DNA from: a virus
DNA: 35,457 nucleotides
Direction: 5' to 3' (one strand)
Virus record (IMG/VR): IMGVR_UViG_3300047095_000401
Span: 1-35,457 of that record
In this document: positions 1 to 35,457 of the stretch, one piece after another
Layout of the letters: every line of letters begins with the position of its first letter
Position numbering within the stretch: position 1 is the stretch's first letter
The notes under the pieces: generated by a model
The model's input: the letters and a program-made list of their open reading frames with translations, nothing else
Databases searched by the model: none
Told to the model about the DNA's origin: nothing
Program-made: the position numbers and the translations under genes

Positions 1-141
1 ATCTGGGTCTTCGTTTGGTCGCCTTGCAGTCAAGATTGTTTCTGGTTTCTTTCCGCGGGTGTGAACAAACATCGTTTCACGAACCTTCTGCCAGTGTTCA
101 AAGTTCTTTGGTCGATATTTTGAATCGGACAGAAAAGAAGA
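1..141. repeat. Terminal overlap, left copy (circular closure)
   Basis: These bases recur at the right end of the window with a single difference (G127 versus A35443). The difference is synonymous in the portal gene (TCC/TCT, Ser). Open coding across the join shows that the repeat is an overlap of a circular or circularly permuted molecule. A length of 141 also equals a common maximum assembler k-mer, so it is probably an assembly overlap rather than a biological terminal repeat. Confidence 0.9.
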
Positions 142-162
142 AATGTTTTCAATTGTTATCAT
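1..162 (-). CDS. Portal protein, N-terminal part (continues at right end of window)
   Basis: Reading the minus strand from the ATG at 160-162, the frame is open through the terminal overlap and joins the large portal frame at the right end. It adds 30 residues (MITIENISSFLSDSKYRPKN and ten more) before the internal Met that would otherwise look like the start. The full protein is therefore about 639 aa. The start lies one base after the TGA stop of the upstream Cys-rich tail gene (TGA-C-ATG), a tight coupling expected inside a structural operon. The bases after the overlap, 142-162, exist only here, so this piece decides the true start. Confidence 0.85.
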   Translation of the reverse strand, partial: MITIENISSFLSDSKYRPKNFEHWQKVRETMFVHTRGKKPETILTARRPNEDPD

Positions 163-163
163 G

Positions 164-1252
164 TCAACAAGTTAGATTTTTGGTGCAATTGCAATATTCA
201 AAATTCATTTCAGTGAACCAACGAGTTCCAGTGTCATTGTTCTTTGAAACTTCACCTTGAAATTGATATTCTTTTGAATCAACATAAACATCACGGCCCG
301 CAACAACTGAAACAACCAGTCGCATGAACCTTTGCGGCAAAGGGAATGATCGCAAAAGCCATGTTTCACACACTTCACTTGATGTTGTCTTCTTTGATGA
401 AGAAATGATGTTTTTTGTGATTTGAAAATTCGTTTGTTCAAAGACTGCCGGAACACGCATCTGGTTTGAATAAACAAAAGGTGAACCGCCCAAAGTATTT
501 GCGAACTGGTTTCCGTAATACATGCCGAAACAATCAGTTGTTGAATAAAGTGAAGACAACAAAACAGACCTTTTTTCACCAGAAAGACAAGGTTCAAGTT
601 TGAAGGGTTCAGAACAAAAACAATCAATGTTCGCAGGGTTCAAAGGGTTTTGAATTTTACCTGAAGTCTTTGTGAAACAAAACTTGAAATAAAAACAAGG
701 TTCAAGACCTTCTTGCTTCATCAAGTTTGCAATTGCTTCAAAATTGAAACGAATCATTTGAATTGACTTCTTTGTGATTGTTCCGTCGTAGTTGACAATT
801 TCAAACTTTCCGACATACCAATTTTGAACAACATCAGACCATGAAGTTTCATCAACTGAAATCAACTGGTCTGAACAACAAGAACGAATTTCAAAATATG
901 CCGCTGATTGTCTGGTGTCAAGTGTTCCGTCTGAAGACCAACCGTCTGAAACACCGCCAGTGACAATCAAAGGTTGTTGAAACTGAAAATCAAACTGGTC
1001 ACCGAGTTGAAAGGGAATGAAGAAAGGTGTGTCATTTCCGCAACATTCTGCATTCCATGTGTCACCGCAATCGCAAAGACCGATTCCGTTATTTACGATC
1101 AGTGTTGAACAATCATCAGAACCGCACAAGGTTGAAATTTCACCGCAAAGAAGTCTGGTTTCTGCATCAATTGTGCATGTGAAATCAGTCAAGTCACAAT
1201 ACGCAATTGAATCTGAAACTGGTGAAATGTAAGAATCAAAAAGGTCTGCCAT
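164..1252 (-). CDS. Cys-rich tail-tip or fibre protein, 362 aa
   Basis: I do not recognise a domain. The protein has about 21 cysteines in 362 residues, several paired (CDCGDTWNAECCG near residue 60, RSCC near 123, CNC near the C-terminus), with many Ser, Thr, aromatic and beta-prone stretches. There is no signal peptide or membrane segment. It is the last gene of the tail block, after the 933-aa Cys-rich protein and directly before portal. Position and composition suggest an exposed tail-tip, fibre or baseplate component stabilised by disulfides or metal; that role is inferred. The start ATG is preceded by an A/T-rich leader containing CCCTTAAA, a motif seen before several genes here. Confidence 0.6.
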   Translation of the reverse strand: MADLFDSYISPVSDSIAYCDLTDFTCTIDAETRLLCGEISTLCGSDDCSTLIVNNGIGLCDCGDTWNAECCGNDTPFFIPFQLGDQFDFQFQQPLIVTGGVSDGWSSDGTLDTRQSAAYFEIRSCCSDQLISVDETSWSDVVQNWYVGKFEIVNYDGTITKKSIQMIRFNFEAIANLMKQEGLEPCFYFKFCFTKTSGKIQNPLNPANIDCFCSEPFKLEPCLSGEKRSVLLSSLYSTTDCFGMYYGNQFANTLGGSPFVYSNQMRVPAVFEQTNFQITKNIISSSKKTTSSEVCETWLLRSFPLPQRFMRLVVSVVAGRDVYVDSKEYQFQGEVSKNNDTGTRWFTEMNFEYCNCTKNLTC

Positions 1253-1261
1253 GTTGCAAAT

Positions 1262-4063
1262 TTAAGGGTTTGACTTTGACCAATAACCGCAAAGTTCATA
1301 AGAAAGTCCGGGTGTCAATGTTGAAGGGTCAATCAATGCAGTTGCTTCATAAGTCAAACCAGAAGGTGAATAAGTCAAGTCAAGTGAAATGACATTCAAT
1401 TGTTGCGGCAAATTGAATGCAGTGTCTTCTGATTCTTTGACATTTGAAGTGTTTCCGCCCGGTGTGATGTTCGCAAAGAAGGCAAAGTTTCCGCTTTCAT
1501 TTGCAGTGTATGTTGCACGAATCTGGTCACAATTGTCAGGACAAAAGACACCGTCAATTGTTGACCAGACACCGCCTGAAAGACATTCAAATTGAAAACC
1601 AAAAATCTTCTGGTCAAAACCTGAATTTGTAGGTTCATTTTCAATTGCAAGAACACGAAACCCTTTTACATAATTGATTTCAAAAGGTGTCCCGTAAATA
1701 CTTGAAAAATCCATTCGAAGAATGTATTCGTAAATGATTTCTGAACCTCGCCAGTCATTCGTCACACCCAAAGTTGTCACATAAGGTGAACCCAGAACAC
1801 CAGCGGGTGTGCGGTTTATGAATGTTGAAGTGTTTGCAGTGAATACATTTGAACCAGAAAACGGACTTGATTCAAACCCGACACGCCTTGTGAATTCAGA
1901 AACAATGTCTGAACCTGAATCTTGAACAATCAAGTTTCCGGGGTTGTTCCAGTTGCCCGGATACCCGACAATACGATTTGAAGTTTCTTGATTGAACATG
2001 AAGAATGTTGTTTTTCCAGAAACCGGAAAATCTGGTTGTCTGAAGTAAACATTCAAAGACAATGAAACAATGTAATCGAGCCAGTTAATCGACCTTCCGA
2101 AACAATCTTTCAATGTACCTTCACCAAATGTGACAACATGCTGAATTCGTTCTTTTGCAACTGGTCTGATACAATTTGAAATGTTTCCAAGAAATATCTG
2201 ATTCCAACCAGAAGTCGTTTCAATTTGACAATTTTCACAATCTGGTTCAGGAACATTTGTGACTTTCAAAGGGTCTGAAATGAAAGAATTGACCATGTCG
2301 TTTTTCGAATAAACAACTGCGAAAATTCTGTATTGATGTGAAACATTCAGACCAGTTCCGATGAATGCAGTCACTTCGTAATCGTCACCGCCCAGTGCGG
2401 TCACTGAAGAAGGCGATTCAAGTAAATTGTCAAGAACACTGATAACGGCATTGTTCACAATTTGACTTCTTGAATTGTTGTAATTCTGCAAGAAATCAAC
2501 TGAATTGTCAGTTGTTGATTCATCAAACAAATTGAAGAAGACACATTGAATGTCGCCATAAACATTTGGAATGTTGATGTAAAACTTCACTTCAGTCTTC
2601 TGAATTGTTGAAAGTGTTGAAACTGGGTTTCCGTTTCTTTCAAAAATGAACAACGGGTCTGTAAATTCTGACGGCCCGTTGTTCAAACCTTTATTGAAAA
2701 ATCTTGAAGTCCAGTTGATTGAATGTGTGTTGTAGCATGTGAATTCGCTGCCGTTTGGGTTCAATTTATTCGGGTCATGAACCCAGAACAATGAACACAA
2801 CTTTCTTTGTGAATTGTAAACTGAAGGGAATGTGTTCACAAGCGGACCAGTCAAGGCGGGAACTGGTGCAAGAACATGGTTTCTTCGCCATTTTGGTGCA
2901 TTGTTGAACACTGCCGCCGAAATCCAGTCTTCAAGGTCTGAAATCATGAACATTGTCAACCTTACTTCAAACGATGTTGAAGTAACAACTTGAATTTCGA
3001 CAATCCAGTTTTTTTGATTTGGTGTGTTGGTTGTTGCACCGTAAAGTGACATCGGAAACCAACCAGAACCAATCATTGAACTGAACAATTCAATGTAATA
3101 CCCTGAAGGCGGTGCAGCGTTTATCGGACCGCCATACTTTGTTGAATAATTGCAAGTTACGGCCCAAATTATCGGGTTGAAGAAAAGTTCAAAGTTGTCA
3201 CCAATTCCGTGTGCGTATGTGAATCTGAAACTGACTTGTTTTTGTTCACCGATTGCAGATTGATTGAACACCGCTTCATTGTCACATGCAGTCGACCATG
3301 TTCCAAGACATTTGCCTTCAGCGTTTATGTCAACACCAGTGCAACAAAGACACGGACAAGGTTCACCGCATGGTTCGCCACCAGCGTCTGTCGCTTGACC
3401 GGTGACCGGAATCAAGAATTCAGTTCCGCATAAGTCAATGACAATGTCGCAATCAAGAATTTGACAAGGTTCTTCAGGTGTCCATGATAAATTTGCGCAG
3501 TCAGTGTCGGCACCGCCGGGGTCTGGTGCAAGTCTTAAAGTTCTCGGAACAATTCCGGCACATGCAGTGTTGTCAATGTCGAAATTGTTTGAACAAAGTG
3601 TTGAATTGTTTGAAATACAAATCTGAAAATTTGCAGATGTGTCACCAAAAGGAACAACACCAAAATCAATTGAAGAAGGTGTGATTGTTGGCGGTAGTGC
3701 CGGATAACCAAAAGAAAACAAATGTGATTCAGAACCGTGTTCTGCCGATACTGGTTGAATGTTCAAAACATCTTCAACATTGCCAGAACCCGCACAAATT
3801 TGAATTTCAATGTCAACAAAATCGCCCGCATTGACGTTGTAAGGAAACGAAGGCGGGTTGAAGTTTATTGAAATAATTGAAGAAGTGAAACTTCCAGTTG
3901 TATGAATCAAATTGATTCCGGTCAATGTCATCTTTTGTGTGAAGACATTCGTGATTCTGCAAGTAATATTGCAACAACAACCTGAATAAATTGTGTTCGT
4001 GAATGCACCGGGTGTGCCTTGTTCACTCAAACAATTGTTAAAATCCCAACGCGGATTCGCCAT
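1262..4063 (-). CDS. Large Cys-rich tail protein with Ig-like domain, 933 aa
   Basis: This is the second-largest gene of the window, and the protein has about 32 cysteines. Residues ~125-225 read SSIDFGVVPFGDTSANFQIC and onward to a VTGQA strand, the pattern of an ASPM/SPD-2/Hydin-type Ig-like domain, common in Bacteroidota surface proteins. A cluster of eight or so Cys follows (GEPCGEPCPCLCCTG). The rest is beta-rich, with repeated Ser/Thr/Asn segments and many PF/PFY turns. It lies downstream of the tape measure and hub-like genes, so a tail-tip or receptor-binding role is likely but inferred. No depolymerase motif was recognised. Confidence 0.65.
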   Translation of the reverse strand: MANPRWDFNNCLSEQGTPGAFTNTIYSGCCCNITCRITNVFTQKMTLTGINLIHTTGSFTSSIISINFNPPSFPYNVNAGDFVDIEIQICAGSGNVEDVLNIQPVSAEHGSESHLFSFGYPALPPTITPSSIDFGVVPFGDTSANFQICISNNSTLCSNNFDIDNTACAGIVPRTLRLAPDPGGADTDCANLSWTPEEPCQILDCDIVIDLCGTEFLIPVTGQATDAGGEPCGEPCPCLCCTGVDINAEGKCLGTWSTACDNEAVFNQSAIGEQKQVSFRFTYAHGIGDNFELFFNPIIWAVTCNYSTKYGGPINAAPPSGYYIELFSSMIGSGWFPMSLYGATTNTPNQKNWIVEIQVVTSTSFEVRLTMFMISDLEDWISAAVFNNAPKWRRNHVLAPVPALTGPLVNTFPSVYNSQRKLCSLFWVHDPNKLNPNGSEFTCYNTHSINWTSRFFNKGLNNGPSEFTDPLFIFERNGNPVSTLSTIQKTEVKFYINIPNVYGDIQCVFFNLFDESTTDNSVDFLQNYNNSRSQIVNNAVISVLDNLLESPSSVTALGGDDYEVTAFIGTGLNVSHQYRIFAVVYSKNDMVNSFISDPLKVTNVPEPDCENCQIETTSGWNQIFLGNISNCIRPVAKERIQHVVTFGEGTLKDCFGRSINWLDYIVSLSLNVYFRQPDFPVSGKTTFFMFNQETSNRIVGYPGNWNNPGNLIVQDSGSDIVSEFTRRVGFESSPFSGSNVFTANTSTFINRTPAGVLGSPYVTTLGVTNDWRGSEIIYEYILRMDFSSIYGTPFEINYVKGFRVLAIENEPTNSGFDQKIFGFQFECLSGGVWSTIDGVFCPDNCDQIRATYTANESGNFAFFANITPGGNTSNVKESEDTAFNLPQQLNVISLDLTYSPSGLTYEATALIDPSTLTPGLSYELCGYWSKSNP

Positions 4064-4083
4064 GTTTTTGATTTTTCACAAAT

Positions 4084-5838
4084 TTACACAATACCTTGAA
4101 CTGACATTGTTCTGTCAGAAAAATTGATTTTGACTTCTTTGATTCGCCCGTAAACAATTGAACCATTCTTCGGCAGTCTGATTGTTTTTGACCAGTCAAA
4201 AGAAGTCAGGTCTGAACATTCAAATTCAAATGTGAAGTTGAAATTGAATTGTGTTGCAGAAGGGTTGCGAGGGTCGTCAATGTAGTGAAACAAAGAATAA
4301 AGATTGTTTGTGTTGTTTTCCTTGAACCAAAACGGATAATTGAAACGGTCGTCTGGGTCAACATTAATGCCGTCAACAAGAACTGGTCCGCCAGTGAATG
4401 TGTCTGAATAATTGTTTTTTACGGTTGAAAATTCCCGGTCAACGCCGTCCCAGATTAAAAACTTGTAATTGAACCCACAATGATTGTTCAACATCATTGC
4501 TTTCTTGTTCTGGTTTGCAAATTGACCGCCAAAAATCAGAAGAAGAAGACCGCCTTGAAATGCTTCAAGAATTTCAAAGATCGTACCTTCATTGTCAACA
4601 TCGTCAGACCTGAATCGTGCCGGTGACAAAGGTAAAGACACATTCAATTGACCAGTTTGTGTCGGGTTGTATGGAACATTGAAATCAACAATGTCATTGA
4701 ATCGCAACTTTGCTTCATTCCCAATGATGTCAAGTGCATCAACATTGTATTCAAATCGACCAAAAGCCCAGCGTTCTCGGTCAATCCATGAAAAACACAC
4801 TTGATTGTCAATGATTCTTGAAGTGTTCAACAATTGTTCTGCATCAATCCATTCAGTTGTCGAATTGAAGTAATCTTTTCGTTCAAAAACCAGTGTTCCG
4901 CCTACGATTGCGTAATCGCCATTGAAGACTGGTTTCAGAACATTGTCAAGAAATGTTTCCATTGTTTCAATCGGCCAGTTTTCTGAAATCAAATCTTGAC
5001 CAATGATTGAAGACGGTTTTCCCTTTTCAACTGATGCCGCCCAAAGTGCCGTGTTGTAATAAATTGAAGAAGGGTCTGTCAAAATTGATGAACTGAAGTT
5101 CAAACCACATTGCGCACAACCAATTTTCAGGAATTCGCGCAACAAAACAGAAGGGTGTTTCCGGTTGCATGTGTCAAAGAAACCGACTGCATCGTCAATC
5201 AAGTCTTGAATCAAATCAACGGTGTTCGCTGGGTTGATTTGGGAATCGTCACAATCGTCTTGTGTGCAATCTGTCAAAGGCAAAAAACAGACAATTGAAC
5301 ACAAAACATAAATGACTGATGCGATCACAATAATGACAAGAACAAAAGGCAAAAGAACCGTTGACACAACAAAACCCAGAATTGAAAGAAGAATCGCACC
5401 AATGATGTGCAAAAATTTGGGGCGACCTTCAATGCAATACAACAAGTTGATGAATGTTGAAGAACTTCCGGGTTTGGGAATGACTTTCGACTGAAGGCAA
5501 TTATACGCAAGGTCTTCTTCAATGACTGATGCAGTGATTGAACAATCTGGTTCGCACCAGTCAATTGCATCGCCCCGAATGATACCTTCAAAAACTGGTT
5601 CAGAACAACAATCGTCATAAATTTTGACATCAACCTTCAGACCGTACCCGTTCACTGGGTCAATCAATGCAGTCTTCAAAATTTGGTAACCGTCATCGAA
5701 GAACACCAGTTCTGAACTGAAAGACTTTGCAGTTCGTCCAAAGTTGTCGTTTCTTCGAAGTGTGACTTCAAAGTTTTCAGTTCCGTCAATTCTGCCAGTC
5801 AGAAGAACATTGTTCAACTTGATTTTCATTGAATTCAT
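4084..5838 (-). CDS. Tail hub/baseplate-like protein with internal membrane hairpin, 584 aa
   Basis: The gene overlaps the tape-measure stop by ATGA and so belongs to the tail operon; M4 could be the real start. Residues 1-115 are beta-rich ([19 protein letters not shown]) and resemble the N-terminal part of siphophage tail hub or Dit-like proteins, but only weakly. Residues ~143-188 form a continuous hydrophobic stretch long enough for two membrane helices, flanked by paired Cys (DWCEPDC before, TDCTQDDC after) and then IGCAQCG near residue 235. The C-terminal half is soluble and beta-rich. A membrane-inserting hub is inferred from this layout. No lysozyme or peptidase motif is visible. Confidence 0.6.
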
Positions 5839-8800
5839 CGCGCCTTGTTTCTGATTCTGTTTTGTTTGTATTGAACTGAAGTGACAATTCCGTTGATGCC
5901 GTTTTCATCAATTGAAAGGTTCAGACCTTTTTGTTCTTTGATTGCCTTTTCAATTCTTTCAAGTCTGTTTTCCATTGTTTTCGTTTGAAGTGTCTGGTGT
6001 CTTTCAATGTTCATGTTCAAGTAAGGGTCACGACCTTTGTGAATTGCTTCAAACAAGGGTCGATATTTTCTTGTTTTTTCTTTGGTGAATACAAATTCAC
6101 CTTTGTGAACAACACCAGCGGGTTCGTACTTTGAACCTTCACCAGTGAAACCACCTTCAGCAAATGAACCGGCCGCTGATTGTGCTTGCGCTTTTGCTGC
6201 GACCAGTCCCGCTGCAAGTGCAATCAATGTCGCTGCAATTGTGAAAGGTGCTGCGGCACCGCCTTCAGCCGCTGCCTTTGCAATCGCAACTGATGAATTT
6301 GCAACAAGTTCAATCGCTGCAAGTGCTTGTTGCGCCCTAACGAATTTCGCACGTTTTTCTTGAAGTTTGGTCAATCTGTCTTCTTCTGCCTGAAGAAGTT
6401 CTGCATTCCCTTTTTCAGCGATTTCTCGTGCCTTTTCAATTCTCTTTTCTTGTGCTGAAATTTGAATTTCTGTTTGTTGAATCGCAGCATCAAGAATCGC
6501 ATTTGTCAATTCTTTGGTTTTTTCAATGATTTCATCAATGCCTTCTTTGATTGCTTCTTTTCTTTTTTCTGCATTCAGTTCTTCTTCAGTCAAGGTTTCG
6601 TCTTCAATGTCTTGAATTTTGTCTGCGGTGTCTTGTCTGATTTTAAGAATGTCAAGTGCGGCTTGTTGTTCAATGACTTTTCTTTCTTCTGGAATCAGTG
6701 CCGCATTTTTCAGTTCTTCATCACGTTGCTTTTCAATTTTCTGAATCAAAAGTGTTTCTTCTTCATTGATGCCTTGTTTCAGTTCATCAAGTCGGCTTTG
6801 AATTTGTTCCCTTATTGAAGTTCGTTCTTTTTCAGATGTTGCCTTTTGAAACTGGTCACGAAGAAACTGAAGTTGTCTTTCTGATTCACTTTGAAATTCT
6901 TCATTTTGCTGAAGTTTTCTGTCAAGTTCAATCTGGTCAAGTTCTGCATTTGATTTTGAACGGCGTTCTTGTTCTTGCTTCACAAGTTCACTGATTTGTT
7001 TTTCAGTGTCATTTGTCACTTTGAGTTTTTGAAGTCTTCTGATTTCTTCAAATTGTGCTTCAATGGTTGTTGTCAGAAGACCTTCAGATCGTGCCTTGTT
7101 TATTCTTTCAGTCAGTTCTTCATCAATTGCCTTTTTTCGTTCATCTGAAAGAAGTTTCAATCTGTTTTTTTGTTCATCAAAGGTGACCGCATCAACAACT
7201 TCAATCTTCTGGGTTGAAACTTCACGATTCAAGACTTCAATTTGTCTGGTCAAGTCTTGAAGAAGTTCCCTTCTTTTTTTGCCAACATCTTCGCCCGATT
7301 TTGCAGTCTGTTTGTCACTTTTCTGAACATTTGCACCGGCTTGTGCAATTCTTTCTGAAAGTGCATCAATCGCTTCGGTTGTTGAATTCAATTGTTCTTC
7401 AGTTGCTTTGATTTGAGCATCAAGCGCACCCTTCAAAATATTCTGATTTGCAGCGGCTTGTTTTTCATTTGCTTCAAGTTCTGAAGAAATCAAAGGTGTT
7501 TCAGTTGAAAATTGCCTTTTTGCTTTGTCTTCTTCTGCCTTTTTCTGACGATCTGCTTCGGCTTTTCTGGTCTTTGCTAACTGGTCTTCGAGATTCAATT
7601 GTTGTTTTGTCAATTCAATGATTTGATTTTCTGCCGCTTTTGCGAATGCGGCTTGTTTTATCGAATTGACTAAATCTTGATAAGTTTGGTCAAGTTCTTT
7701 AACAAATTTCTTTTCATCATTGATGTTCTTCAGTGTTGTTCCGTATTGATTGTTTAACTGGTCAACCAGTTTCTTTCTTTCACTTGAACCAGTGTTTGTC
7801 TTCTTGATTTCTTTCACCAATTTGTCAAGTTCTGAAACTTGCTTTGCGGATTCTGAATTCGCTTCACTTTGAGCGGTTGCCAGTGCCGATTGTTTGTCAA
7901 TCAATTTTTCAGTTTCAACAACAACTTCTTCTTCCGCTTCACCAAAGTCAATCAAGAATGCCGCTGCGGTTGCAAGTCCAGTTGCAAGAAGACCAATCGG
8001 ATTTGTTTTCAAAATGGTTGAAAACGCAGTTGTTGTTGCAGTTGCAATTCTGGTCGCTGCCGAATAAAGACCAGTTGAAGTTGTCAAGGTATTCAATGAA
8101 ATCGTTGTCGCTCGTGTCCAGAATGCACGAAGTCTTTGAACCGCTACCTGAAGTTGTTCTTGAATGATTAAGGCACGAATTCGTACTTGATAAATCAATT
8201 CCGCCTGAATTGCCGCATTCCTTTGACCAACATAAAAGGCAATCGCACCGCCCAGAAGGGTCAATGTTCTTCCGTAATCTTGAAGAAATTGCGGAATCGC
8301 TTTGAACCCTTCAATCAATGCGAATGCCGCATCAAGTGTTGTTTCAAACACTGGTAAAAGTCCGTTTCCGATTGACCTTTGCAATTGCTCAAAACCGCCA
8401 ATGACATTTGAAATTCTTCCGGCAGTTGACTTTGAAAGTTTTTCAGTCAGTCCGTCAAATCTTCCGCCTTCAGAAGTCAAAGACTTGAAACCTTCTTCAA
8501 GGTTCTTGAATGAAATTTGACCTTCTGAACCCAGTTTTTTGACTTGTGAAACATCGACACCGAGTTGTTTTGCAAATTCATCAAGAATCGGAATTCCGGC
8601 TTCAGTCAATTGATTGATGTCTTCTGCGTAAAGTGTTCCTTGTGTTCTTGCTTTTCCGTAAATGACTGCAAGTTCATTGAAGTTTTTGCCAGTTGCCGCA
8701 GACACATCGCCGATTCTTTCAAGGGTTGTTGTCAGATTTTCAACTGGTTCACCAAATGCAAGTAACGCTTTGCCCGCTTGATTCACTTCATCTGGTGTGA

Positions 8801-9140
8801 AAGGTGTCTTGATTGCAAATTCTTCAAGGTCTGCGAACACTTGTTTTGCCTTTTCAGAAGAACCGAGAAATGTTTCAAGTGAAATGTTCACGGCTTCATA
8901 ACTTTGAACCGCATTCAATGCACCCTTTCCAAAGTCAATCGCAGATGCCGCAACTGAAATTCCGCCAAAGGCCGCAGCCGCACCAGTCAAAGTCTTTCGA
9001 AGTCCTGAAATCTGGTTTTCCGCACCTTTGGTTGCAGTTCCGATGTTTCCCAGACCAGACTTGATCGCTTCAAGTTCCCTTCGTAGTTGTCCAGTGTCCG
9101 CCTGAAGTCTGAACAAAACATTTTTGACATTGTCCGCCAT
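5835..9140 (-). CDS. Tape measure protein, 1101 aa
   Basis: The N-terminal region contains a typical phage tape-measure domain (residues ~90-250: [57 protein letters not shown]). Hydrophobic stretches at ~290-310 and ~370-395 follow, then a very long Gln/Glu/Lys coiled coil (~430-920). An Ala-rich hydrophobic segment (~930-985) precedes a basic C-terminus. The protein sets tail length and probably helps DNA pass through the cell envelope. At about 1.5 angstroms per residue it would suggest a tail near 165 nm, an estimate only. The chaperone genes lie just upstream, as in siphophages. Confidence 0.95.
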
Positions 9141-9142
9141 TT

Positions 9143-10016: not shown

Positions 10017-10047
10017 TGTTTCAAGTTTTATTTGACTTCAAAAATAA

Positions 10048-23837: not shown

Positions 23838-23847
23838 TTTTTGAATT

Positions 23848-26272: not shown

Positions 26273-26328
26273 AGTTTACATTTTTGAACCTAAAAAGTTT
26301 CTGATTTTTGAAACAAAACTTTCTTGTG

Positions 26329-26418: not shown

Positions 26419-26431
26419 GATATTTGAATTT

Positions 26432-27382: not shown

Positions 27383-27875
27383 ATCCAAAAGGGTCGTTTT
27401 TGTAAATGTTTTTATCTTTCACACCAATTGACTTCAAGAAGTCCGGAACCCAGAATGACGGACAAGCCTTGTTGTCGAACTGGTTGTGTCCAGCGATCAA
27501 AACATTTGGGTTGTAGTCAAGAACTTCTTTAATAATCAAAGTCAGTGTTTTTGTTTGTTCAATGTTCAGTGTGTTTTTTGGTTTCAATTGTGAATCAAGA
27601 CCGCCAACGTACACAACATGTCTTGAAATTGAATTGATGCCTTTGACACCGTTTGTGATTTCTGAATCTTGAATCCAAAGGTCACCGTTGTGTTCAACAT
27701 ACCGATGTCGTTTTCCGTCAATCTGAATCAAATCAGAATAACCGACCTTTTTCCAACCACGACCAACTGGTTGCGGTGAAGTATGCCACGACAAGACTTG
27801 TTCTGGTGTGATGTTTTGACCTTCTTTTGTTGCAGTGCAATGAATCACGAAGTATTTGAAGGGTCTGATTTGCAT
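27363..27875 (-). CDS. N-acetylmuramoyl-L-alanine amidase (endolysin), 170 aa
   Basis: This is an Amidase_2/PGRP-fold enzyme like T7 lysozyme that cuts the bond between muramic acid and L-alanine in peptidoglycan. Zinc ligands are visible as VIHCTAT (His12), AGHNQFDNKACPSFWVP (His130 and Cys138), and the catalytic Tyr is in VGYSDLI (Tyr46). There is no signal peptide, so export depends on a holin; a candidate lies two genes downstream. The length is that of the bare catalytic domain without a cell-wall-binding domain. Confidence 0.93.
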   Translation of the reverse strand: MQIRPFKYFVIHCTATKEGQNITPEQVLSWHTSPQPVGRGWKKVGYSDLIQIDGKRHRYVEHNGDLWIQDSEITNGVKGINSISRHVVYVGGLDSQLKPKNTLNIEQTKTLTLIIKEVLDYNPNVLIAGHNQFDNKACPSFWVPDFLKSIGVKDKNIYKNDPFGYGDKLF

Positions 27876-27880
27876 TGTTT

Positions 27881-28300
27881 TCAGATTGAAGAATTCTTTT
27901 CGTTTTCAGTTTCCTTTTCAATTGCTTTTTTTTGACCAATGAAGAAGACATCGAATTTTTCATGCTTTGTCAATTGGTCAACAAACAAAGAACTTGATTC
28001 GTTCTTGATGTGCGTTTTCAATTGTTCAAGACCTTGTTCAATGAAAACATCTGATTTTCTTCTGAAGTGTCCAGATGTGACAAAGAAAATCAAACCCTTT
28101 TTTTCAGAAACAAGTTTCAACCAGTTTGCTTTTGTAACCTTCAGACCTTGTCTTTTCTCGAATTTTGTAACTTCTTCAAGTTCTGAATCAGATGTTGCGA
28201 CCATAAAAAGATCGTAAACATTGATTGACCTTTCGAGAAAATGAACTGATTTTGACAATTCACTTGATGTGTTGTTCAATAACTGGTTGCGAACAATCAT
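27881..28300 (-). CDS. Hypothetical protein, 139 aa
   Basis: The product has an N-terminal region MIVRNQLLNNTSSELSKSVH, a middle part FEKRQGLKVTKANWLKLVSE with a hydrophobic strand (GLIFFVTSG), and a Lys/Glu-rich end (KKAIEKETENEKN). No motif was recognised. Its start shares an A with the preceding stop (TAATG), so the two genes are coupled. It precedes the endolysin by five bases. Confidence 0.65.
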   Translation of the reverse strand: MIVRNQLLNNTSSELSKSVHFLERSINVYDLFMVATSDSELEEVTKFEKRQGLKVTKANWLKLVSEKKGLIFFVTSGHFRRKSDVFIEQGLEQLKTHIKNESSSLFVDQLTKHEKFDVFFIGQKKAIEKETENEKNSSI

Positions 28301-28632
28301 TATTTCTTGAATTTTGAACCTGAACCCATGCCTTTCGGCAATTGATAAACAACTTTCGCTGGTCTTGCATTGTTTACACTTACAATTTCACCGGTTCGGC
28401 CTTTTGCAACTGAACCAGAATTGACTTGTGCAACTTTCTTTGACATCAAACTTGACTTTGACTGAATTTCGCTTTTGACATCTTTTGAAGGTTTCTTCGG
28501 GTCAGTCTTCGGGTCAGTCTTCGGGTCAGTCTTTGGGTCTGTTTTTGGGTCTGTTTTTGGTGTTGTTGTTCCGTCTTTTGAAGGTGTTGACGGGTTTGTT
28601 GTTGTTCCAGTTTTGTCAATTGTTCCAATCAT
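28300..28632 (-). CDS. Low-complexity repeat protein, 110 aa
   Basis: The N-terminal third is Thr/Pro/Lys-rich with tandem TDPK units (about residues 25-46) and is surely disordered. The C-terminal half (SSLMSKKVAQVNSGSVAKGR, VNNARPAKVVYQLPKGMGSG) is basic and may fold. It is the first gene after the terminator behind the tail-tube candidate, followed by amidase and holin. Perhaps a linker-type virion or lysis accessory protein; function is unknown. Confidence 0.65.
   Translation of the reverse strand: MIGTIDKTGTTTNPSTPSKDGTTTPKTDPKTDPKTDPKTDPKTDPKKPSKDVKSEIQSKSSLMSKKVAQVNSGSVAKGRTGEIVSVNNARPAKVVYQLPKGMGSGSKFKK
28499..28558. repeat. Five tandem 12-bp units inside the TDPK gene
   Basis: Plus strand: GGGTCAGTCTTC twice, GGGTCAGTCTTT once, GGGTCTGTTTTT twice, each unit coding for Thr-Asp-Pro-Lys. 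The units keep the reading frame, so copy number can change without a frameshift. Confidence 0.9.
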
Positions 28633-28659
28633 GACTTGTGTTTTTTAGTTTTTGTAAAA

Positions 28660-28704
28660 ATAAAAGAAAAAATCGGCTGAAAAGACAAATTCTTTCAGCC
28701 GATT
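28660..28704 (-). terminator. Strong rho-independent terminator after the tail-tube candidate
   Basis: A perfect 12-bp stem AATCGGCTGAAA/TTTCAGCCGATT (28671-28682 with 28693-28704) with a 10-nt loop is followed on the minus strand by TTTTTTCTTTT. It ends or attenuates the capsid/tail-tube transcript before the lysis and neck genes. Confidence 0.9.
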
Positions 28705-28735
28705 CAAACAAACTACATGAACAAGAACAAAGGTA

Positions 28736-29278
28736 TTAAATTCCGTCAAGATTGACTGCAACACCGCAAGGTGCGAGAATCGAAGTCCACGAAATTGTTC
28801 CGTCAAAGAAGATTGAACCAGTGTTGTTGTCTTCGATAACTTGGTCAACTTCAATCTGGAATGAAGAAATCGGTCCGTAGAAATACCCGTCACATGTGTA
28901 GTATCCGAACTGGTAATTGGTTGCATTCAACTGAATTGTGTTCCAGAACGTAATGTCAGCACATGAAGCGGCATCTGAATTGTAATCTTGAAAGGTCACG
29001 GTCTTTTCACCGCCAACAACCGCTTCGGTTCCGCATGAAGAAATTCTTTTCTTCGTGAAAGTTCCTTTGGGTTTTTGACCAACAATAAGACCAGTCAGAA
29101 CAACATCATTGCTTGCGATTGCCGCAATCCATTCTGCACGATCTTCAATGTCAGTGAATTCGTAATCACATTTGATGAATGCCAGTTTTGAAATACCGCC
29201 ATTCCGTAAGGTAACACCGCAGCCACCGGAATAACTTACCGGCAAGGCGGGTGCGCATGTTGATGGACAAAGTGCCAT
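28736..29278 (-). CDS. Probable major tail protein, 180 aa
   Basis: The product starts MALCPSTCAPALPVSYSGGC and is beta-rich with about eight Cys. Mid-region segments are LAFIKCDYEFTDIEDRAEWI and KRISSCGTEAVVGGEKTVTF. It follows the major capsid gene, has the same 23-bp leader before its ATG and is followed by a strong terminator, all signs of a highly expressed structural gene. Major tail tube protein is the best fit; a head decoration protein is the alternative. The identification is by context. Confidence 0.6.
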   Translation of the reverse strand: MALCPSTCAPALPVSYSGGCGVTLRNGGISKLAFIKCDYEFTDIEDRAEWIAAIASNDVVLTGLIVGQKPKGTFTKKRISSCGTEAVVGGEKTVTFQDYNSDAASCADITFWNTIQLNATNYQFGYYTCDGYFYGPISSFQIEVDQVIEDNNTGSIFFDGTISWTSILAPCGVAVNLDGI

Positions 29279-29279
29279 G

Positions 29280-29302
29280 TTTTTGAGTTTTTAAGGGTTG
29301 AA
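29280..29302 (-). promoter_or_regulatory. Leader repeat before the major tail protein candidate
   Basis: A 23-bp block (plus strand contains GAGTTTTTAAGGGTTGAA) that is identical to the block before the major capsid gene and stands a few bases before the ATG. It is probably a translation-initiation leader for abundant virion proteins. Confidence 0.6.
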
Positions 29303-29313
29303 CATTCAGTTAA

Positions 29314-30336
29314 TTAGTCGCAAACGGCAATTGTTGAACAATCTTTGAAATTGAAAGTGTAATTCACACCAGTGTTCACATCTGTCGCAGCAAAGGCATT
29401 TGAAGGAATGAAGAACAAACCCCAGTTCAAAGACAATTTGATTGACCATTCATCAGCACAATCATCGTAGTGAACCTTCAGGTCGTATGTCAAATTGGTG
29501 AAAGGGTCTGTGATTGTTCCGTGTTCAAACACATCATTGCGTTTTGCATAAGTGTCAACATACTTGTTCCATGTCACCAATTGAACCGCATTCGGTGCAA
29601 TGACAACGAATTCGTTTGCTCCGATAACTGATTCAACAAATCTGTCATTGAAATACATGTAATCGGTCCAGCGTGCTAAATCAACACCGAATGAATTGCA
29701 ACATGCAATTTGTTGTGTTTTTGCATACAAATCAAAGTTACCTGAACCGATAATCATCGGCGCACCAGATGAACCAACAAGTTCGTATTCATGACGAATC
29801 TGTGAAGCGGCAATTGAACGCGGTGCATTTGATGTGTCTTCAAACAACTTGATTGACTTCTGGGTTGTCCCGTCAGCAAATTTTCCGAAATTGGTCGATT
29901 GTTGGGTCAAAAGTTGTTTGTCAAGTGCAACATTGATTGCATTCATTTGCGACATGATAACATTTGACACATAAACTGAATCGGCTTCGCACAATTTCCG
30001 CATTTCATCTTCAGAAAATTTCATTCCTTTGGTTTCAATGCAATTGTCAATTTCAAAAATTGTTTGCTTTGGTGCGATTTCTTGTTCAGTTTCACAAGAA
30101 TTTGTGCAAGTCAGATTGACATCGTCATCGGTTCCGCGTTGAATGTAGTCAATCTGAACCAGTCTTGACTTTCCGTTTGTGGGAACTTGAATCGCTTGAA
30201 AACCTGAACGATTTTCTTCTGACATCAGTGCATCAAGATACCCGACTTTGTCGCGTTTCAATGCCGGTGCATTTTGTCCGGCAACATCTGACAAATTTTG
30301 TTGTAGTTTTTGGCAAAGACCTTCTGTAAAAGCCAT
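29314..30336 (-). CDS. Major capsid protein, 340 aa
   Basis: The product starts MAFTEGLCQKLQQNLSDVAG. Downstream are KFSEDEMRKLCEADSVYVSN, SQMNAINVALDKQLLTQQST, APMIIGSGNFDLYAKTQQIA and AKRNDVFEHGTITDPFTNLT, the layout of Bacteroidota-phage major capsid proteins with a long helix followed by beta domains (HK97-type fold presumed). About ten Cys are present, unusual for a capsid protein. The scaffold gene lies directly upstream behind a 171-bp gap with hairpins, and the gene has the 23-bp leader. Position and size make this the best MCP candidate. Confidence 0.8.
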   Translation of the reverse strand: MAFTEGLCQKLQQNLSDVAGQNAPALKRDKVGYLDALMSEENRSGFQAIQVPTNGKSRLVQIDYIQRGTDDDVNLTCTNSCETEQEIAPKQTIFEIDNCIETKGMKFSEDEMRKLCEADSVYVSNVIMSQMNAINVALDKQLLTQQSTNFGKFADGTTQKSIKLFEDTSNAPRSIAASQIRHEYELVGSSGAPMIIGSGNFDLYAKTQQIACCNSFGVDLARWTDYMYFNDRFVESVIGANEFVVIAPNAVQLVTWNKYVDTYAKRNDVFEHGTITDPFTNLTYDLKVHYDDCADEWSIKLSLNWGLFFIPSNAFAATDVNTGVNYTFNFKDCSTIAVCD

Positions 30337-30338
30337 TT

Positions 30339-30361
30339 TTTTTGAGTTTTTAAGGGTTGAA
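30339..30361 (-). promoter_or_regulatory. Leader repeat before the major capsid gene
   Basis: The second copy of the 23-bp leader block. The coding-strand form holds TTCAACCCTTAAAAACTC just before the A-rich run and the ATG. Confidence 0.6.
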
Positions 30362-30394
30362 AAAAAGTGAATTGTTCAGTGTGAAAAACACAAA

Positions 30395-30479
30395 ACCCAA
30401 AAACAAAGAATCAAAAATTGATTTTCCGTTTTTGGGTCGGTTCCCACGATTGTCATTTTTGGTTTGACAAACCCAGAAA
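30395..30479 (-). promoter_or_regulatory. Hairpin cluster between scaffold and capsid genes
   Basis: ACCCAAAAAC (30395-30404) pairs with GTTTTTGGGT (30428-30437), with a nested AATCAA/TTGATT stem. TTGTCA (30450-30455) pairs with TGACAA (30465-30470). The segment 30428-30437 could also pair with 30471-30479 (ACCCAGAAA), so alternative structures are possible. The stretch has no gene and may act as an attenuator, mRNA stabiliser or processing site. Confidence 0.5.
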
Positions 30480-30507
30480 TTCGGTTTTACGGCACCGCTG
30501 CCCGATT

Positions 30508-31326
30508 TTATTCTTGACCAAACACTTTCATTGACTTCAATGCTTCAGCATTTTGTTGTGCTTTTGCAAGTCCGACAAGTTTGTACTTTGGTTCATCATT
30601 TTGAATCTGCGGTTGTCCAGTCAACACTGGTTTTTGTGCTGAAGGCGTGCCGTTTGATTGTTTAATGACATTCAAAGACTGAAGGTGTGTGTCAAGAACT
30701 TCTTCAAAGGTAAGAATTTTCGTTCCGTCTGAATTCAAAGGGTTCAAATTTTGCTTTGTTTTTATCAAAATTGAATTTGAACCTTCATCAAAATCAAGAT
30801 TGTAATTCGAATCAAGGTAGTTTTTCACTGCCGGAATGACAACATCTGGTGAAACAATCAAATTCTTCTTTGAAAGAATTGATGAAAGAATTGATTCGCG
30901 TTTGAATGTCTTGATTGCGTTCTTCACTTCTGAATCTTTTGCCGGAATGATTTCTTCAACCAGTTTTTTGTTTTCATTGGTCAATTCAATCAACTTTTGT
31001 TGAAGTTCTTCCGCACCAGAAGAAGTTGACTTGATCGTTTTATCGAAGGCAATGTCAACAATTTCATCGAACTTCTTGTCTTTGATTTCATCTGGTGTCA
31101 AGTTGAACTTCTTCTTCAGTTTGTGTTCAATCTTTGACAATTGTTCGCCACGAATTTCGTCTTTTATTGGTTGAATGAAGTCTGAATCATTCTTCAAGAC
31201 TTCTTTTTGACCAGACTTAAATTGTGACACGATTTCGTCAATGTTCAGTTCTTCATCTGAAGTCAGTTTTTGAATTGATTCATTGTTGATGCCGATTTTT
31301 TTCAGAAAGGTTTCAATGTGCTTCAT
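30508..31326 (-). CDS. Scaffold protein candidate, 272 aa
   Basis: A highly charged, Lys/Glu-rich and largely helical protein with a coiled-coil segment (AEELQQKLIELTNENKKLVE, ~105-125) and a Gln/Pro-rich end (QKPVLTGQPQIQNDEPKYKL). It has no Cys, unlike the virion proteins around it, which fits a protein that leaves the procapsid. Position directly before the capsid gene supports scaffold; no protease motif is visible here. Confidence 0.75.
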   Translation of the reverse strand: MKHIETFLKKIGINNESIQKLTSDEELNIDEIVSQFKSGQKEVLKNDSDFIQPIKDEIRGEQLSKIEHKLKKKFNLTPDEIKDKKFDEIVDIAFDKTIKSTSSGAEELQQKLIELTNENKKLVEEIIPAKDSEVKNAIKTFKRESILSSILSKKNLIVSPDVVIPAVKNYLDSNYNLDFDEGSNSILIKTKQNLNPLNSDGTKILTFEEVLDTHLQSLNVIKQSNGTPSAQKPVLTGQPQIQNDEPKYKLVGLAKAQQNAEALKSMKVFGQE

Positions 31327-31328
31327 GC

Positions 31329-31568
31329 TTATTTGATTTTTGATTTTCGTGTTTTCGGAACAACAACTTCTTCTTGAATTGAATGTTCTGGTTCAGGTTC
31401 AGGTTCACCAACTGGTGAAGAAACATTGAACTTGATTTGTTTTTTCGGCATGTCTTGAAGAACATCAAAGTTCTTTGCGTGACCGCCTTTCTTCAGTTGC
31501 TCGTAAGCGATTTTTGTGATTTCAGAAACTTTCCCAGTTCTGACATTCTGAACTTTTATTTTTTCCAT
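31329..31568 (-). CDS. Small head-region protein, 79 aa
   Basis: The product starts MEKIKVQNVRTGKVSEITKI, then has AYEQLKKGGHAKNFDVLQDM, a Pro/Glu repeat (GEPEPEPEHS) and a basic end (KTRKSKIK). Short proteins of this layout often lie between portal and scaffold genes in phages with small gene clusters. Function is unknown. The gene ends two bases before the scaffold start. Confidence 0.65.
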   Translation of the reverse strand: MEKIKVQNVRTGKVSEITKIAYEQLKKGGHAKNFDVLQDMPKKQIKFNVSSPVGEPEPEPEHSIQEEVVVPKTRKSKIK

Positions 31569-31592
31569 TTGTGAAATGTTTGATTGACAAAT

Positions 31593-31799
31593 TTATTGAT
31601 TTTTTTCAAAACGAGTTGTGACTTCGTTCCATTGGTCTGGGTCGAGCATTGAACCAAACCATTCAAATGCAAAAGGGTCTGGTTCATTTTTGAAGTCTTG
31701 TGCAATGATTGAATAAATTTCAGTTAAAGTTTCAAGATCGTTGTTTTCGACCGCTTCTTCTGTTATTTCAGAAAGTTCTTGTCTTTGTTTGCTTGTCAT
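31593..31799 (-). CDS. Small acidic head-region protein, 68 aa
   Basis: The product starts MTSKQRQELSEITEEAVENN and ends FGSMLDPDQWNEVTTRFEKNQ. It is acidic and helical and overlaps the MuF-like gene stop as ATGA. It might be an immunity or chaperone partner for the zincin domain of that protein, because it is directly coupled, but a structural role is just as possible. No family was recognised. Confidence 0.6.
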   Translation of the reverse strand: MTSKQRQELSEITEEAVENNDLETLTEIYSIIAQDFKNEPDPFAFEWFGSMLDPDQWNEVTTRFEKNQ

Positions 31800-33559
31800 T
31801 TGTATTGAATAATCGTGTCAATGTCAATTTTGTATTCTTTGACCAAATCTTTGAAGAAGTCAAAGGTCTTCTTGTGATATTTTTCAAACCATTCAGGTGC
31901 ATAAACGTATGCGGAAAACGATTCAGTCCAGAATTCAGACCAGTTTGTTTCACCGTAACTTGTTGGTGCGTCTGTCAATCTGATTTGTCTTTGTCTTGCA
32001 AAAGAAGTCAAGATGTCTCGCTTCTTTGGGTCAACATTGTTGTGAATCAAATGCGCGAATTCATGTGTGATTGTTGGTGCGATGTTGTTGTCTTTCAATT
32101 CAGACATTGAAAAAATTCCGTAAATCTTGTCACCTTCTGTGAATTTATACCCGTTTCGAATGATGTCACCTTTTGCATTCAAATACAAAGAATCATTTTC
32201 TTTCAAAAACCTTTCTCGGTCTTCATAAAGAGAATTCAACTGGTTTGAATAATTCTTTTTTAAGATTGTATCGTTTTTGTAAGTCTTCACTGAAAGACCA
32301 GCGGTTTTGCCGCTTGAAGCGTAATAAGTACACATTCCGCCAGTTCCGTCCGTAAGTCTGGGAACATTACTCGCAAACACTTTGGGTTTGTTGATGAAAA
32401 GGTTCTTACTTTTCAAAGGTGCTGCGGCTTCGCTGGGTGTCAACAATCCAATCGGAACACTTCCAGAATTTGAAAATTTTGCCGCAGAATCGGCATCGGC
32501 AACAATTTCAAAGAACTTCTTGTTGAATTCTGGTGTTTGACTTGAAACAAAGAATTCTTCATTCAGTTGTTCTTGATTTGAAACATTTTCTTGTTTTTTC
32601 TTGTTGGTCTTGACTTTTTTCTTGACTTCAGAAATCTGGTCTTCAACTTTGGTTTCAGTTTCATTTTCATCGTCAATCTGGTCTTCTTCAAGTCTTTTCT
32701 TTTGTGAAGGTGTCAACTTGAAAGGAATTGCAGAATGACGGCAATTGTAACCGCCACGAAATGTTGCAAAGTTTTCTTTGTTTGTTCCTGAAATCATGCC
32801 TGAACCATTGTTTGTCGCCCACGAAATTTCGGAATCAAGGTCTGATTTCTGAAGAATTCTTTTCTTCACCCAACGAACACACTGACTTCTTGAATCTTCA
32901 ATCAACGAACCCACGTATCTGAAGGCATCAAGTTCAAATTCTTCTGCAATTCTTGAATTGATTTGACCTTCAAACTGATTCAAGGCATCGCGCGAAACTT
33001 GTTTGACATATCTTGAATAAAGTCCGTCGACATTTGGGTTTCCGAGAATGTAGTTTGTCAAGTATTGTTCAAGTTCAGACTTTGAAGTTCCGGCAACAAT
33101 ATTCTGAAAAAGACCTTGTCTGACTGGTTCAATGAAGTTTGTGTTCACACCAGAACCCGTCAAACCTTCAAGTGTTGATTCAACCGCTTGTTTTTGAACT
33201 GGTGAAATCAAATCTTCAAGTTCATCAACTGAAAGTTCATTGACATCTTTCTGAACATCAAAATTGAATTGTTTGATTGTTTCAAAGTTTCGAAGGTATT
33301 CTGAAATCGCAGAAGGCATGTCAGAACCCTGAATCGCATCAATGATTGTTTTATCAATCATTGAAACAAGGTCAATGTTTTTGTCGTCAAAATCAATTTT
33401 TCCGCCTGAAGTGTTCATCTTGTCAATCAACTTCTTCACCGCACCGAAAATTCTTTGGTTTGTTGGTGTCAGTTTGTTGAACAACTTTTGTTCAGCGGTC
33501 TGAATTGTCTTGTCTTTCTTTGAAATTATTTCAATGATTTCATCTGAAAATTCCGCCAT
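31796..33559 (-). CDS. MuF-like minor head protein fused to a zincin metallopeptidase domain, 587 aa
   Basis: Residues ~110-285 are an SPP1 gp7/Mu F-type head morphogenesis domain (LEQYLTNYILGN, QVSRDALNQFEGQINSRIAE, RYVGSLIEDSRSQCVRWVKK, FRGGYNCRHSAIPF). An acidic, Lys-rich linker (~290-335) follows. Residues ~335-587 form a second domain with TITHEFAHLIHNN: HExxH at 499-503, and WSEFWTESFSAY downstream offering Glu546 as third zinc ligand. MuF proteins sit at the portal and are known to carry toxin or effector domains. Maturation protease or injected effector are both possible. The stop/start overlaps on each side place it between portal and head genes. Confidence 0.85.
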   Translation of the reverse strand: MAEFSDEIIEIISKKDKTIQTAEQKLFNKLTPTNQRIFGAVKKLIDKMNTSGGKIDFDDKNIDLVSMIDKTIIDAIQGSDMPSAISEYLRNFETIKQFNFDVQKDVNELSVDELEDLISPVQKQAVESTLEGLTGSGVNTNFIEPVRQGLFQNIVAGTSKSELEQYLTNYILGNPNVDGLYSRYVKQVSRDALNQFEGQINSRIAEEFELDAFRYVGSLIEDSRSQCVRWVKKRILQKSDLDSEISWATNNGSGMISGTNKENFATFRGGYNCRHSAIPFKLTPSQKKRLEEDQIDDENETETKVEDQISEVKKKVKTNKKKQENVSNQEQLNEEFFVSSQTPEFNKKFFEIVADADSAAKFSNSGSVPIGLLTPSEAAAPLKSKNLFINKPKVFASNVPRLTDGTGGMCTYYASSGKTAGLSVKTYKNDTILKKNYSNQLNSLYEDRERFLKENDSLYLNAKGDIIRNGYKFTEGDKIYGIFSMSELKDNNIAPTITHEFAHLIHNNVDPKKRDILTSFARQRQIRLTDAPTSYGETNWSEFWTESFSAYVYAPEWFEKYHKKTFDFFKDLVKEYKIDIDTIIQYK

Positions 33560-35457
33560 TAAAGTGCATTTTGTTGAACTGATATTTCAATCGGGTTGCC
33601 GAGAATTTGTTCCGCCTTTTCGCCTTCAATTCCATAAATTTCACGCAACAACGCAAGTGCCGCACTTCTTTGGGTCAAACCTTGTGCAACTGATTCTTGA
33701 ATCTGAAGAATGCCTTGAACACCGCCGACTGAACCCTTCAGGTTTGCTTGTGCTTCGGCTTGTTGCCTTTGAAGTTCAGTGTCTTGACCAAACCCTGAAA
33801 CATCAATGATCGTTTTCGGAATGTACGAATCAATGACTGGTTTCATTGCAGTGTCAAGTGCATTGAACAATTCTGAAAGACCTTGTTCAAGAAATTCAGT
33901 TCCGTTTGATGCAACGAGATTAGTCATGGTTTTGTAGGCGTACAAAGACTTCAGAAGGTCTTCTTTCTTGATTGTTCCAGATGCAAGAAGGGTCTGTTTG
34001 TCTTTCACACTTAAATTGAACAAAGGGTCGTACGAAACCAGAACTTCAACCATTCTGGTCACGGCCTTGTTTCCTGAAAACCTTTTCTTTGCAAGGTCTT
34101 TTGTTGATTCAACCAGAAATGCGACTGGTGCGTTCTTGTCAGTCAATTTTGTGATTTCAGAAATCAAGTCTTCTTCAGTCTTCATTGAAAACGAAATCGG
34201 CTTCACAATGACTGGTTCTTTTGGTTGAATGACATTTCTGTACGATTCAATGAACATCAAAGACTTGAAAATGATTTCATCAAAAATGTTGTTTGAAATC
34301 TTTGTCAGTTGTGAAAATGAATCTTCACGGTCAATCTGTTTTGCAGTCCCGCTTTGTGCTTCATCAATTGTTGTCAAGTGAAGTGATTCTTCCGCCTTTT
34401 TTAACAATGTTTCCCACGCTTGACCAGAATACTGAATGATATCGACTGGCGGTGAAATGAATTTCAACATTGCTTCAGATGAAGAATTGTTTTCTTTTAG
34501 AATTCCGTCACCTTTTTCACGAATATACACACCAAAAGGTGACCTTGAAATGACACGACCAGAACCTTTGCAAACGCCACATCGTTCATGTTCATCTGAT
34601 TCATGATTGTAAACAATTCCGTCTCGACAACCTTTTGCTGAACAAGTTTCTGCAATTTCTTCACGATACGGGAATGCTGAAGTTGTCATGACGGCCGTCC
34701 AGTCTGAATACTGACGAATCGCTTCATTTGCAAAGGGAACAAATGCCGAAAAATAACTTTCAAAAAAGTCTTCGTCGGTAAGGTCACCGCCCAGAATAAT
34801 TGCCGGAACTTGACCAATTTGGTGCATGTATATCAATTCAGTTTCAAATCTGGTATTTTGACCAGTGCCGACCTGAAAGTGACGAAAATACGCATCATTC
34901 GTCAAAGTGTAATAAACAAGACCAGTGTTTGTCTTCTTTCCATTTGACAAGACTTCAACAAATTCATCTGGTGAACGCCAACAAATCAAATTCGGTTCAA
35001 AAACCTTGATGTGTTCAGACATAATCAACAAAGGTGAAACATCGACCTTCACTGAAGGGTTGAAAAGACCTTCACCAGACGGAACCCAGACCAGAAAACC
35101 GTTCGGGTCTTCAATCATTCTTCTGACAACATACTTCTGAATGAATGAATAAAAGAATTGACCTTCAAACTTTCTGGTGTTCAAGTATTCATTCAATTCA
35201 TCTGAAACACTTATTGAAAAATTCGCATTCTGAAAAATACGAAACAACTTGTCAATTGCACGATTCATTGAGCCTTTTGTAATTGGTTCGTAAATCATAA
35301 GACGATATTTCTGAACATCTGGGTCTTCGTTTGGTCGCCTTGCAGTCAAGATTGTTTCTGGTTTCTTTCCGCGGGTGTGAACAAACATCGTTTCACGAAC
35401 CTTCTGCCAGTGTTCAAAGTTCTTTGGTCGATATTTTGAATCAGACAGAAAAGAAGA
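33559..35457 (-). CDS. Portal protein, main part, about 639 aa in full
   Basis: This is the dodecameric channel through which TerL packages DNA. The frame leaves the window at the right edge and continues at the left end (ATG at 160-162), so the internal Met at 35388 is not the start. Features (internal-Met numbering): MNRAIDKLFRIFQNANFSIS near 41, an SYFSAFVPFANEAIRQYSDW helix ~211-230, and a C-terminal helical part with QRQQAEAQANLKGSVGGVQG. An insertion carries CSAKGC and CGVCKGSG (Cys249, 254, 270, 273), a zinc-ribbon pattern resembling the DnaJ CxxCxGxG motif. The stop overlaps the MuF-like start (TAATG). Confidence 0.88.
   Translation of the reverse strand, partial: SSFLSDSKYRPKNFEHWQKVRETMFVHTRGKKPETILTARRPNEDPDVQKYRLMIYEPITKGSMNRAIDKLFRIFQNANFSISVSDELNEYLNTRKFEGQFFYSFIQKYVVRRMIEDPNGFLVWVPSGEGLFNPSVKVDVSPLLIMSEHIKVFEPNLICWRSPDEFVEVLSNGKKTNTGLVYYTLTNDAYFRHFQVGTGQNTRFETELIYMHQIGQVPAIILGGDLTDEDFFESYFSAFVPFANEAIRQYSDWTAVMTTSAFPYREEIAETCSAKGCRDGIVYNHESDEHERCGVCKGSGRVISRSPFGVYIREKGDGILKENNSSSEAMLKFISPPVDIIQYSGQAWETLLKKAEESLHLTTIDEAQSGTAKQIDREDSFSQLTKISNNIFDEIIFKSLMFIESYRNVIQPKEPVIVKPISFSMKTEEDLISEITKLTDKNAPVAFLVESTKDLAKKRFSGNKAVTRMVEVLVSYDPLFNLSVKDKQTLLASGTIKKEDLLKSLYAYKTMTNLVASNGTEFLEQGLSELFNALDTAMKPVIDSYIPKTIIDVSGFGQDTELQRQQAEAQANLKGSVGGVQGILQIQESVAQGLTQRSAALALLREIYGIEGEKAEQILGNPIEISVQQNAL
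35317..35457. repeat. Terminal overlap, right copy (circular closure)
   Basis: Copy of bases 1-141, differing only at 35443 (A instead of G). It should be counted once when the genome is closed. Confidence 0.9.

Follow-up and report, generated by a model that had tools for sequence, protein, structure and literature searches.

The viral record IMGVR_UViG_3300047095_000401 was analysed at its full length of 35,457 bases, referred to here as the window, with respect to its avoidance of restriction-enzyme target sites and to the exemption of those sites that touch a CpG (CG) dinucleotide. A 141-base repeat, about 99% identical, was found at both ends, so the window is probably a complete phage genome, either terminally redundant or circular. 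The minus strand carries nearly all the genes, and the encoded proteins include tape-measure, terminase, RecT, replication and portal-like proteins. Over the whole genome (1..35457), as judged from counts and synonymous shuffles, nearly all copies of dozens of restriction-enzyme target sites have been lost unless they touch a CG.

GATC occurred 27 times (span 348..33811; at 348, 1097, 4579, 5323, 7087, 7550, 9063, 10176, 11704, 12549, 14511, 15495, 18044, 18539, 20401, 20752, 21073, 22198, 23038, 24234, 24658, 27495, 28210, 29140, 31033, 31736 and 33808), always as CGATC or GATCG. The 15 GGCC sites (span 295..34696; at 295, 2673, 3161, 4973, 6171, 8970, 10887, 13894, 16438, 16852, 22740, 23482, 28398, 34063 and 34693) all read CGGCC or GGCCG, and each of the 10 GGWCC sites (span 2844..29669; at 2844, 3126, 4385, 10297, 12416, 17395, 23725, 26375, 28872 and 29665) touched a CpG. 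AGCT, CCWGG and CTAG had no copies by exact count. The initial annotation of this DNA had reported about 27 GATC, 15 GGCC and 9 GGWCC sites, all overlapping a CpG, and the lack of AGCT and CCWGG; the exact counts agreed with all of this except for the number of GGWCC sites, and the GATC positions given there as examples were correct within one base (348, 1097, 4579, 9063, 24234 and 33808). It had also regarded other palindromes as unrestricted, which held for GAATTC, CAATTG and GANTC, and likewise for CATG and TGCA, but not for GTAC, which depended partly on CpG contact (7 copies seen and 43 expected without CpG, 14 and 20.5 with it). GAATTC (67) and CAATTG (64) were well above expectation, the means of the coding-sequence shuffles being about 38 each. 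The composition of the window was extreme, with TAG, GAG and TA at 0.05, 0.08 and 0.19 of expectation, respectively.

As a null model, 300 synonymous-codon shuffles were generated over 48 genes, preserving the proteins and the codon usage. When the palindromes were split by CpG overlap, as had been proposed in the initial annotation, the unprotected forms were completely absent: no non-CpG GATC was found against 67.5 expected (lowest shuffle 46), no GGCC against 20 (lowest shuffle 10) and no GGWCC against 13 (lowest shuffle 3), and AGCT and CCWGG were missing against 38 and 19 expected (lowest shuffles 23 and 10). The CpG-contacting copies located in genes were near expectation (25 vs 37 for GATC, 15 vs 12 for GGCC and 9 vs 8 for GGWCC). 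Under a second null, based on flank frequencies, the probability that all copies touch a CpG was 1e-11 for the 27 GATC sites, 4.5e-4 for GGCC and 0.04 for GGWCC; as the effect is already built into its flank frequencies, this null errs on the conservative side. None of the outcomes named beforehand as evidence against the pattern occurred: neither unprotected sites nor AGCT and CCWGG reached expected levels, and the pattern did not arise in the shuffles. The site avoidance and the CpG exemption are not due to chance or codon usage.

The exemption was examined with all the words of 3 to 5 bases present at less than 0.3 of expectation, for each of the 16 possible pairs of a preceding and a first base. 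Only C before G rescued: the 45 avoided words starting with G stood at 0.72 of expected in CpG vs 0.13 outside it, and in the remaining 15 flank combinations the avoided words stood at 0.05-0.41 of expectation. Rescue was detected in all four NCG contexts (ACG 0.48, CCG 0.81, GCG 0.78 and TCG 0.71), and the CpG had to overlap the avoided word, as CGGATC and CGGAG, in which the inner GATC or GAG is untouched, were not rescued. The same rule extended to GCWGC, ACNGT, CCNGG, RGCY and the trinucleotide GAG. About 70 recognition sequences were split by CpG contact; their overall sums count nested and duplicate sites and serve for illustration only. For the non-nested set of GATC, GGCC, GGWCC and GCWGC, no copy was seen without CpG, where 121 were expected, and 67 were seen with an edge CpG, where 70 were expected. 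An internal CpG was also effective (observed/expected): ACWGT 0/49 vs ACSGT 41/44, CCWGG 0/19 vs CCSGG 10/11, and GCWGC away from CpG 0/27 vs GCSGC 40/21. Sites unable to touch a CpG at their edges were missing altogether (AGCT 0/38 and CTNAG 0/66), and CATG, TGCA, AATT, GANTC, TCNGA and several Type IIS sites were at or above expectation. A greedy inference of degenerate avoided motifs was discarded, as the mixed motifs that it returned could not be assigned to individual enzymes.

More than 100 viral contigs were gathered as relatives with the capsid-like, terminase and portal proteins. The first is a 340-residue structural protein (29314..30336, minus strand) that matched no family and is probably the major capsid protein; the terminase large subunit (10048..11325, minus strand; PF04466) retrieved a sister phage, L124, at 96% identity. 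In these contigs we evaluated the CpG-touching copies of the sites avoided outside CpG, some of the listed sites being nested (values are seen/expected). The window retained 248/277 of such copies. Most relatives showed extreme short-word depletion but no CpG rule. The rule was obeyed by the sister phage, composed of L124 and L177 (outside 6/427, CpG-touching 85/134), and by the short contig L179 (outside 2/48, CpG-touching 19/27); within the capsid-related set these two and the window were the only ones with the full exemption, and L084 and a few others had it for RGCY/GGCC only. No exemption was found in L118 (outside 9/280, CpG-touching 2/215), L104 (3/91 and 2/117) or L090 (2/131 and 0/112), and CpG-touching copies were also lost in L112 (0/97) and L085 (2/91). 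Repeating the counts on related phages, as suggested in the initial annotation, thus reproduced the exemption in the sister phage and L179 and not in most others. Since relatives lacking the rule were evaluated by the same procedure, the effect is not an artefact of the method. The absence of AGCT and CTAG was considered as a trait of the window phage alone and rejected: nearly the whole compositionally extreme clade has 0-2 copies, so this absence is not phage-specific, whereas the CpG exemption is. The avoidance is lifted by CpG only, the exemption is general over many sites, and it is restricted to the lineage of the window.

From these patterns, we consider it quite likely that the CpG cytosines of this phage carry a chemical mark that shields overlapping sites from bacterial restriction enzymes. 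The CpG cytosines of the virion DNA, probably every one, would be modified, and on entry into a bacterium the recognition sequences containing a marked cytosine would be uncuttable, whereas those without one would be cut. Over time, mutants free of unprotected sites would survive, leading to a near-complete purge, and the CpG-touching sites would stay near their neutral frequency. The mark would most simply be 5-methylcytosine made by a host CpG methyltransferase, and the selecting agents would be Type II and Type IIS enzymes of Bacteroidota hosts. A CpG modification of this kind, with purging of the unprotected sites, had been put forward in the initial annotation, and every prediction of it that could be examined at the sequence level was borne out: rescue by CpG only, in all NCG contexts, with overlap required and an internal CpG effective, and loss of the CpG copies in relatives without the exemption. 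The mark itself is inferred, and so is its maker.

Some results weigh against this proposal. Several words were depleted despite containing a CpG (observed/expected: ATCGAT 0/10, AACGTT 1/17, TCGA 63/159 and ACGT 27/106). An edge CpG failed to rescue the BccI and FokI sites (0/6 for each, the numbers being small), and in the sister phage L124 GATC was gone even with CpG (0/17). All these cases could reflect enzymes indifferent to the CpG mark. Finally, the depletion of TAG (66 copies on both strands) and of TpA in the window is common to the clade and not explicable by CpG.

The initial annotation had left the maker of the mark as a host or a phage function. In the window we found neither a C5-methyltransferase (PF00145, E 0.01) nor a TET_JBP dioxygenase (PF12851, E 10), and Pfam scans of most of the open reading frames, only small ones being left unscanned, gave no methyltransferase of any kind. 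As the phage has no recognisable C5-methyltransferase or TET, the host is favoured over the phage, and a host CpG methyltransferase seems the likeliest source of the mark. The strongest alternative, which we nevertheless regard as unlikely, is that the phage makes the mark itself: an island at 19.4-23.2 kb that includes a TET-associated glycosyltransferase (20420..21499, minus strand; PF20691, E 5e-33) would produce a bulky CpG hypermodification able to block even enzymes to which plain methylation makes no difference. In its favour, the glycosyltransferase was present in the window alone among 22 records (the window and 21 relatives), and plain CpG methylation is tolerated by DpnII and HaeIII, the prototype enzymes for GATC and GGCC, which are among the shielded sites. 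However, no C5-methyltransferase or TET was found to make the hydroxymethyl acceptor. Phages combining TET, a C5-methyltransferase and glycosyltransferases are known from PF20691 neighbourhoods; the window has the PF20691 gene in common with them, but a ParB-like gene (21294..21695, minus strand) adjoins it instead of the other two. Of 80 other phages, 69 had a ParB-like gene near the PF20691 gene, and TET was seen neither among the recurrent neighbours inspected by eye in these 80 phages nor in the five of those records that were searched. Besides, most PF20691 phages with enough signal had no exemption (CpG-touching copies seen/expected: L063 0/33, L023 0/28, L026 0/23 and L048 7/54), although L058, which carries the gene and lies outside the capsid-related set, may share it (27/30). 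The glycosyltransferase was therefore not supported as the maker of the CpG mark, most carriers being without exemption and no TET or methyltransferase having been found; a phage contribution of this gene to a DNA modification is possible.

Some further observations concern these genes. The glycosyltransferase and the ParB-like gene (20420-21695 in the window) recur together in at least 69 viral contigs. The GGNCC sites of L058 lie mainly at CpG (27 vs 29.5 expected there, 2 vs 46 outside, nested sites). The contigs of the sister phage end short of the island, and no contig covering it was found from the sister's metagenome when the glycosyltransferase, a 318-residue protein and the PAPS-like protein were used as queries. 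The only C5-methyltransferase among the 22 clade records was found in L155/L156 (record G006, relative L104), which lacks the CpG exemption and has hardly any GATC.

A second alternative involves no modification: the host enzymes would need particular flanks (DGATCH, DGGCCH and so on), and the CpG-flanked copies would not be substrates. It reproduces the counts for any single site, but the same CpG rule would be needed for GATC, GGCC, GGWCC, GCWGC, RGCY, GAG and others, and for the internal CpG in ACNGT and CCNGG; moreover, relatives avoiding GAG, GGNCC or GATC mostly avoid the CpG-flanked copies too, and we hold this explanation to be very improbable. Even less credible is a sequence-specific mutational process, acting without nuclease selection, that removes words wherever a CpG is lacking. 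Depletion at the level of trinucleotides (TAG, GAG), unusual for restriction avoidance, and the difference between lineages in the dinucleotide lost are in line with it, but discrete motifs of 4-5 bp (GATC, CCWGG, CTNAG, ACWGT) are wholly lost and CATG, TGCA, AATT and GANTC are at or above expectation, which resembles site-specific cleavage. An artefact of composition or codon usage, in which a short genome has few GATC and GGCC sites that neighbour a CpG by chance, has just as little credibility and is already refuted by the shuffles, the rescue matrix and the relatives: the window is compositionally extreme and AGCT and CTAG are missing or nearly so in nearly all extreme relatives, but the codon-preserving shuffles always recreate at least 46 unprotected GATC and most relatives of similar composition show no exemption under the same procedure.

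Restriction-site avoidance in phages is well known and was surveyed by Rusinov et al. 2018; among coliphages, those encoding a hydroxymethylase avoided only 2.4% of host sites vs 55.8% in relatives lacking this gene (PMC6286503). As in known cases, the sites in the window are under-represented or absent against a null, here a codon-preserving one, and host restriction-modification systems are most likely what selects against them. In that survey modification is all-or-none, whereas avoidance in the window is conditional for each site, those containing CpG being exempt; a term search of PMC6286503 returned neither CpG nor site overlap. As in T4-type hydroxymethylcytosine phages, a cytosine mark would relieve the selection against restriction sites; those phages, however, modify every cytosine and have largely lost avoidance, whereas in the window only CpG appears marked and avoidance is complete elsewhere. 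SP-beta-like phages carry cytosine methyltransferases and protect themselves by marks at restriction sites. In the window no such methyltransferase gene was found, and the apparent target of the mark is CpG rather than the recognition sites of the enzymes themselves. In vitro, phage DNA is reported to be protected from cognate and overlapping restriction by cytosine methylases, among them a CpG methylase (PMC7653180). The window resembles this M.SssI-type methylation in the blocking of overlapping sites (PMC7653180) but would represent a footprint left by evolution in a natural phage, in which no M.SssI-like gene was identified. A published account of such a footprint was not found in a literature coverage that was incomplete and hence no proof of novelty.

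The main genes of the island (about 19.4-23.2 kb) were not found among the nearest relatives. They include a PAPS-reductase-like gene (19424..20275, minus strand) whose product resembles phrog_424; it was absent from all the compositionally extreme relatives searched, and L148, of the normal-composition branch, gave one partial match at 33%. Its similarity to the SspD/DndC sulfur-transfer proteins is weak, and it is common among unrelated phages. A 202-residue protein of the island (22640..23248, minus strand) had no match in Pfam, PHROG, NCBIfam or PADLOC and no homologue in the relatives searched. Regarding the host, no tRNA genes were found in the window. Among cultured relatives, the capsid-like protein had no match and the terminase had less than 30% identity among the matches listed. 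In genome scans the nearest cellular sequence was an uncultured Bacteroidia metagenome-assembled genome (42% identity to the capsid-like protein); four genomes of that class, this one included, gave matches, and the others were few and weak.

In other lineages, CTGG and CAGG were nearly missing outside CCWGG in L118 (L167, L168) and L151 (L170, L171), with CCWGG at 56 vs 19 and 105 vs 22 expected, respectively, which suggests protection by CCWGG methylation. TCAG lay mostly within TTCAG in L085 (L157, L158) and L112 (L165, L166); in L085 the copies within TTCAG were 186 vs 83 expected, and elsewhere 31 vs 109, suggesting that TTCAG is another protected context. The rescue by TT and AA seen in other lineages may partly correspond to word autocorrelation and is not interpreted. 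A dinucleotide survey of relatives covering L084-L129, L142-L154 and L177-L235 revealed lineage-specific losses of AG (0.10 of expectation in L125), CG (0.03-0.06 in L154, L199, L209 and L210) and CA (0.19 in L226); TA stood at 0.17-0.19 of expectation in the window and L124.

Whether methylation patterns can be read in this way from bare sequence across a probable Bacteroidota phage family seems to us an even question. Each lineage would purge different short words, the survivors would reveal the protected contexts (CpG in the lineage of the window, CCWGG in L118 and L151, TTCAG in L085 and L112, CpG alone having been tested thoroughly), and unprotected lineages would drop whole dinucleotides. 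If the CpG mark is real, the window would document, site by site and in nature, how partial DNA modification relieves restriction, and the debated extent to which modification releases phages from restriction-site avoidance could be addressed by comparison within one genome, with close relatives as controls. The marked cytosines of an uncultured phage, together with their sequence context, would be inferable without chemical data, and the finding would point to a host population that faces many restriction enzymes and has a CpG methyltransferase.

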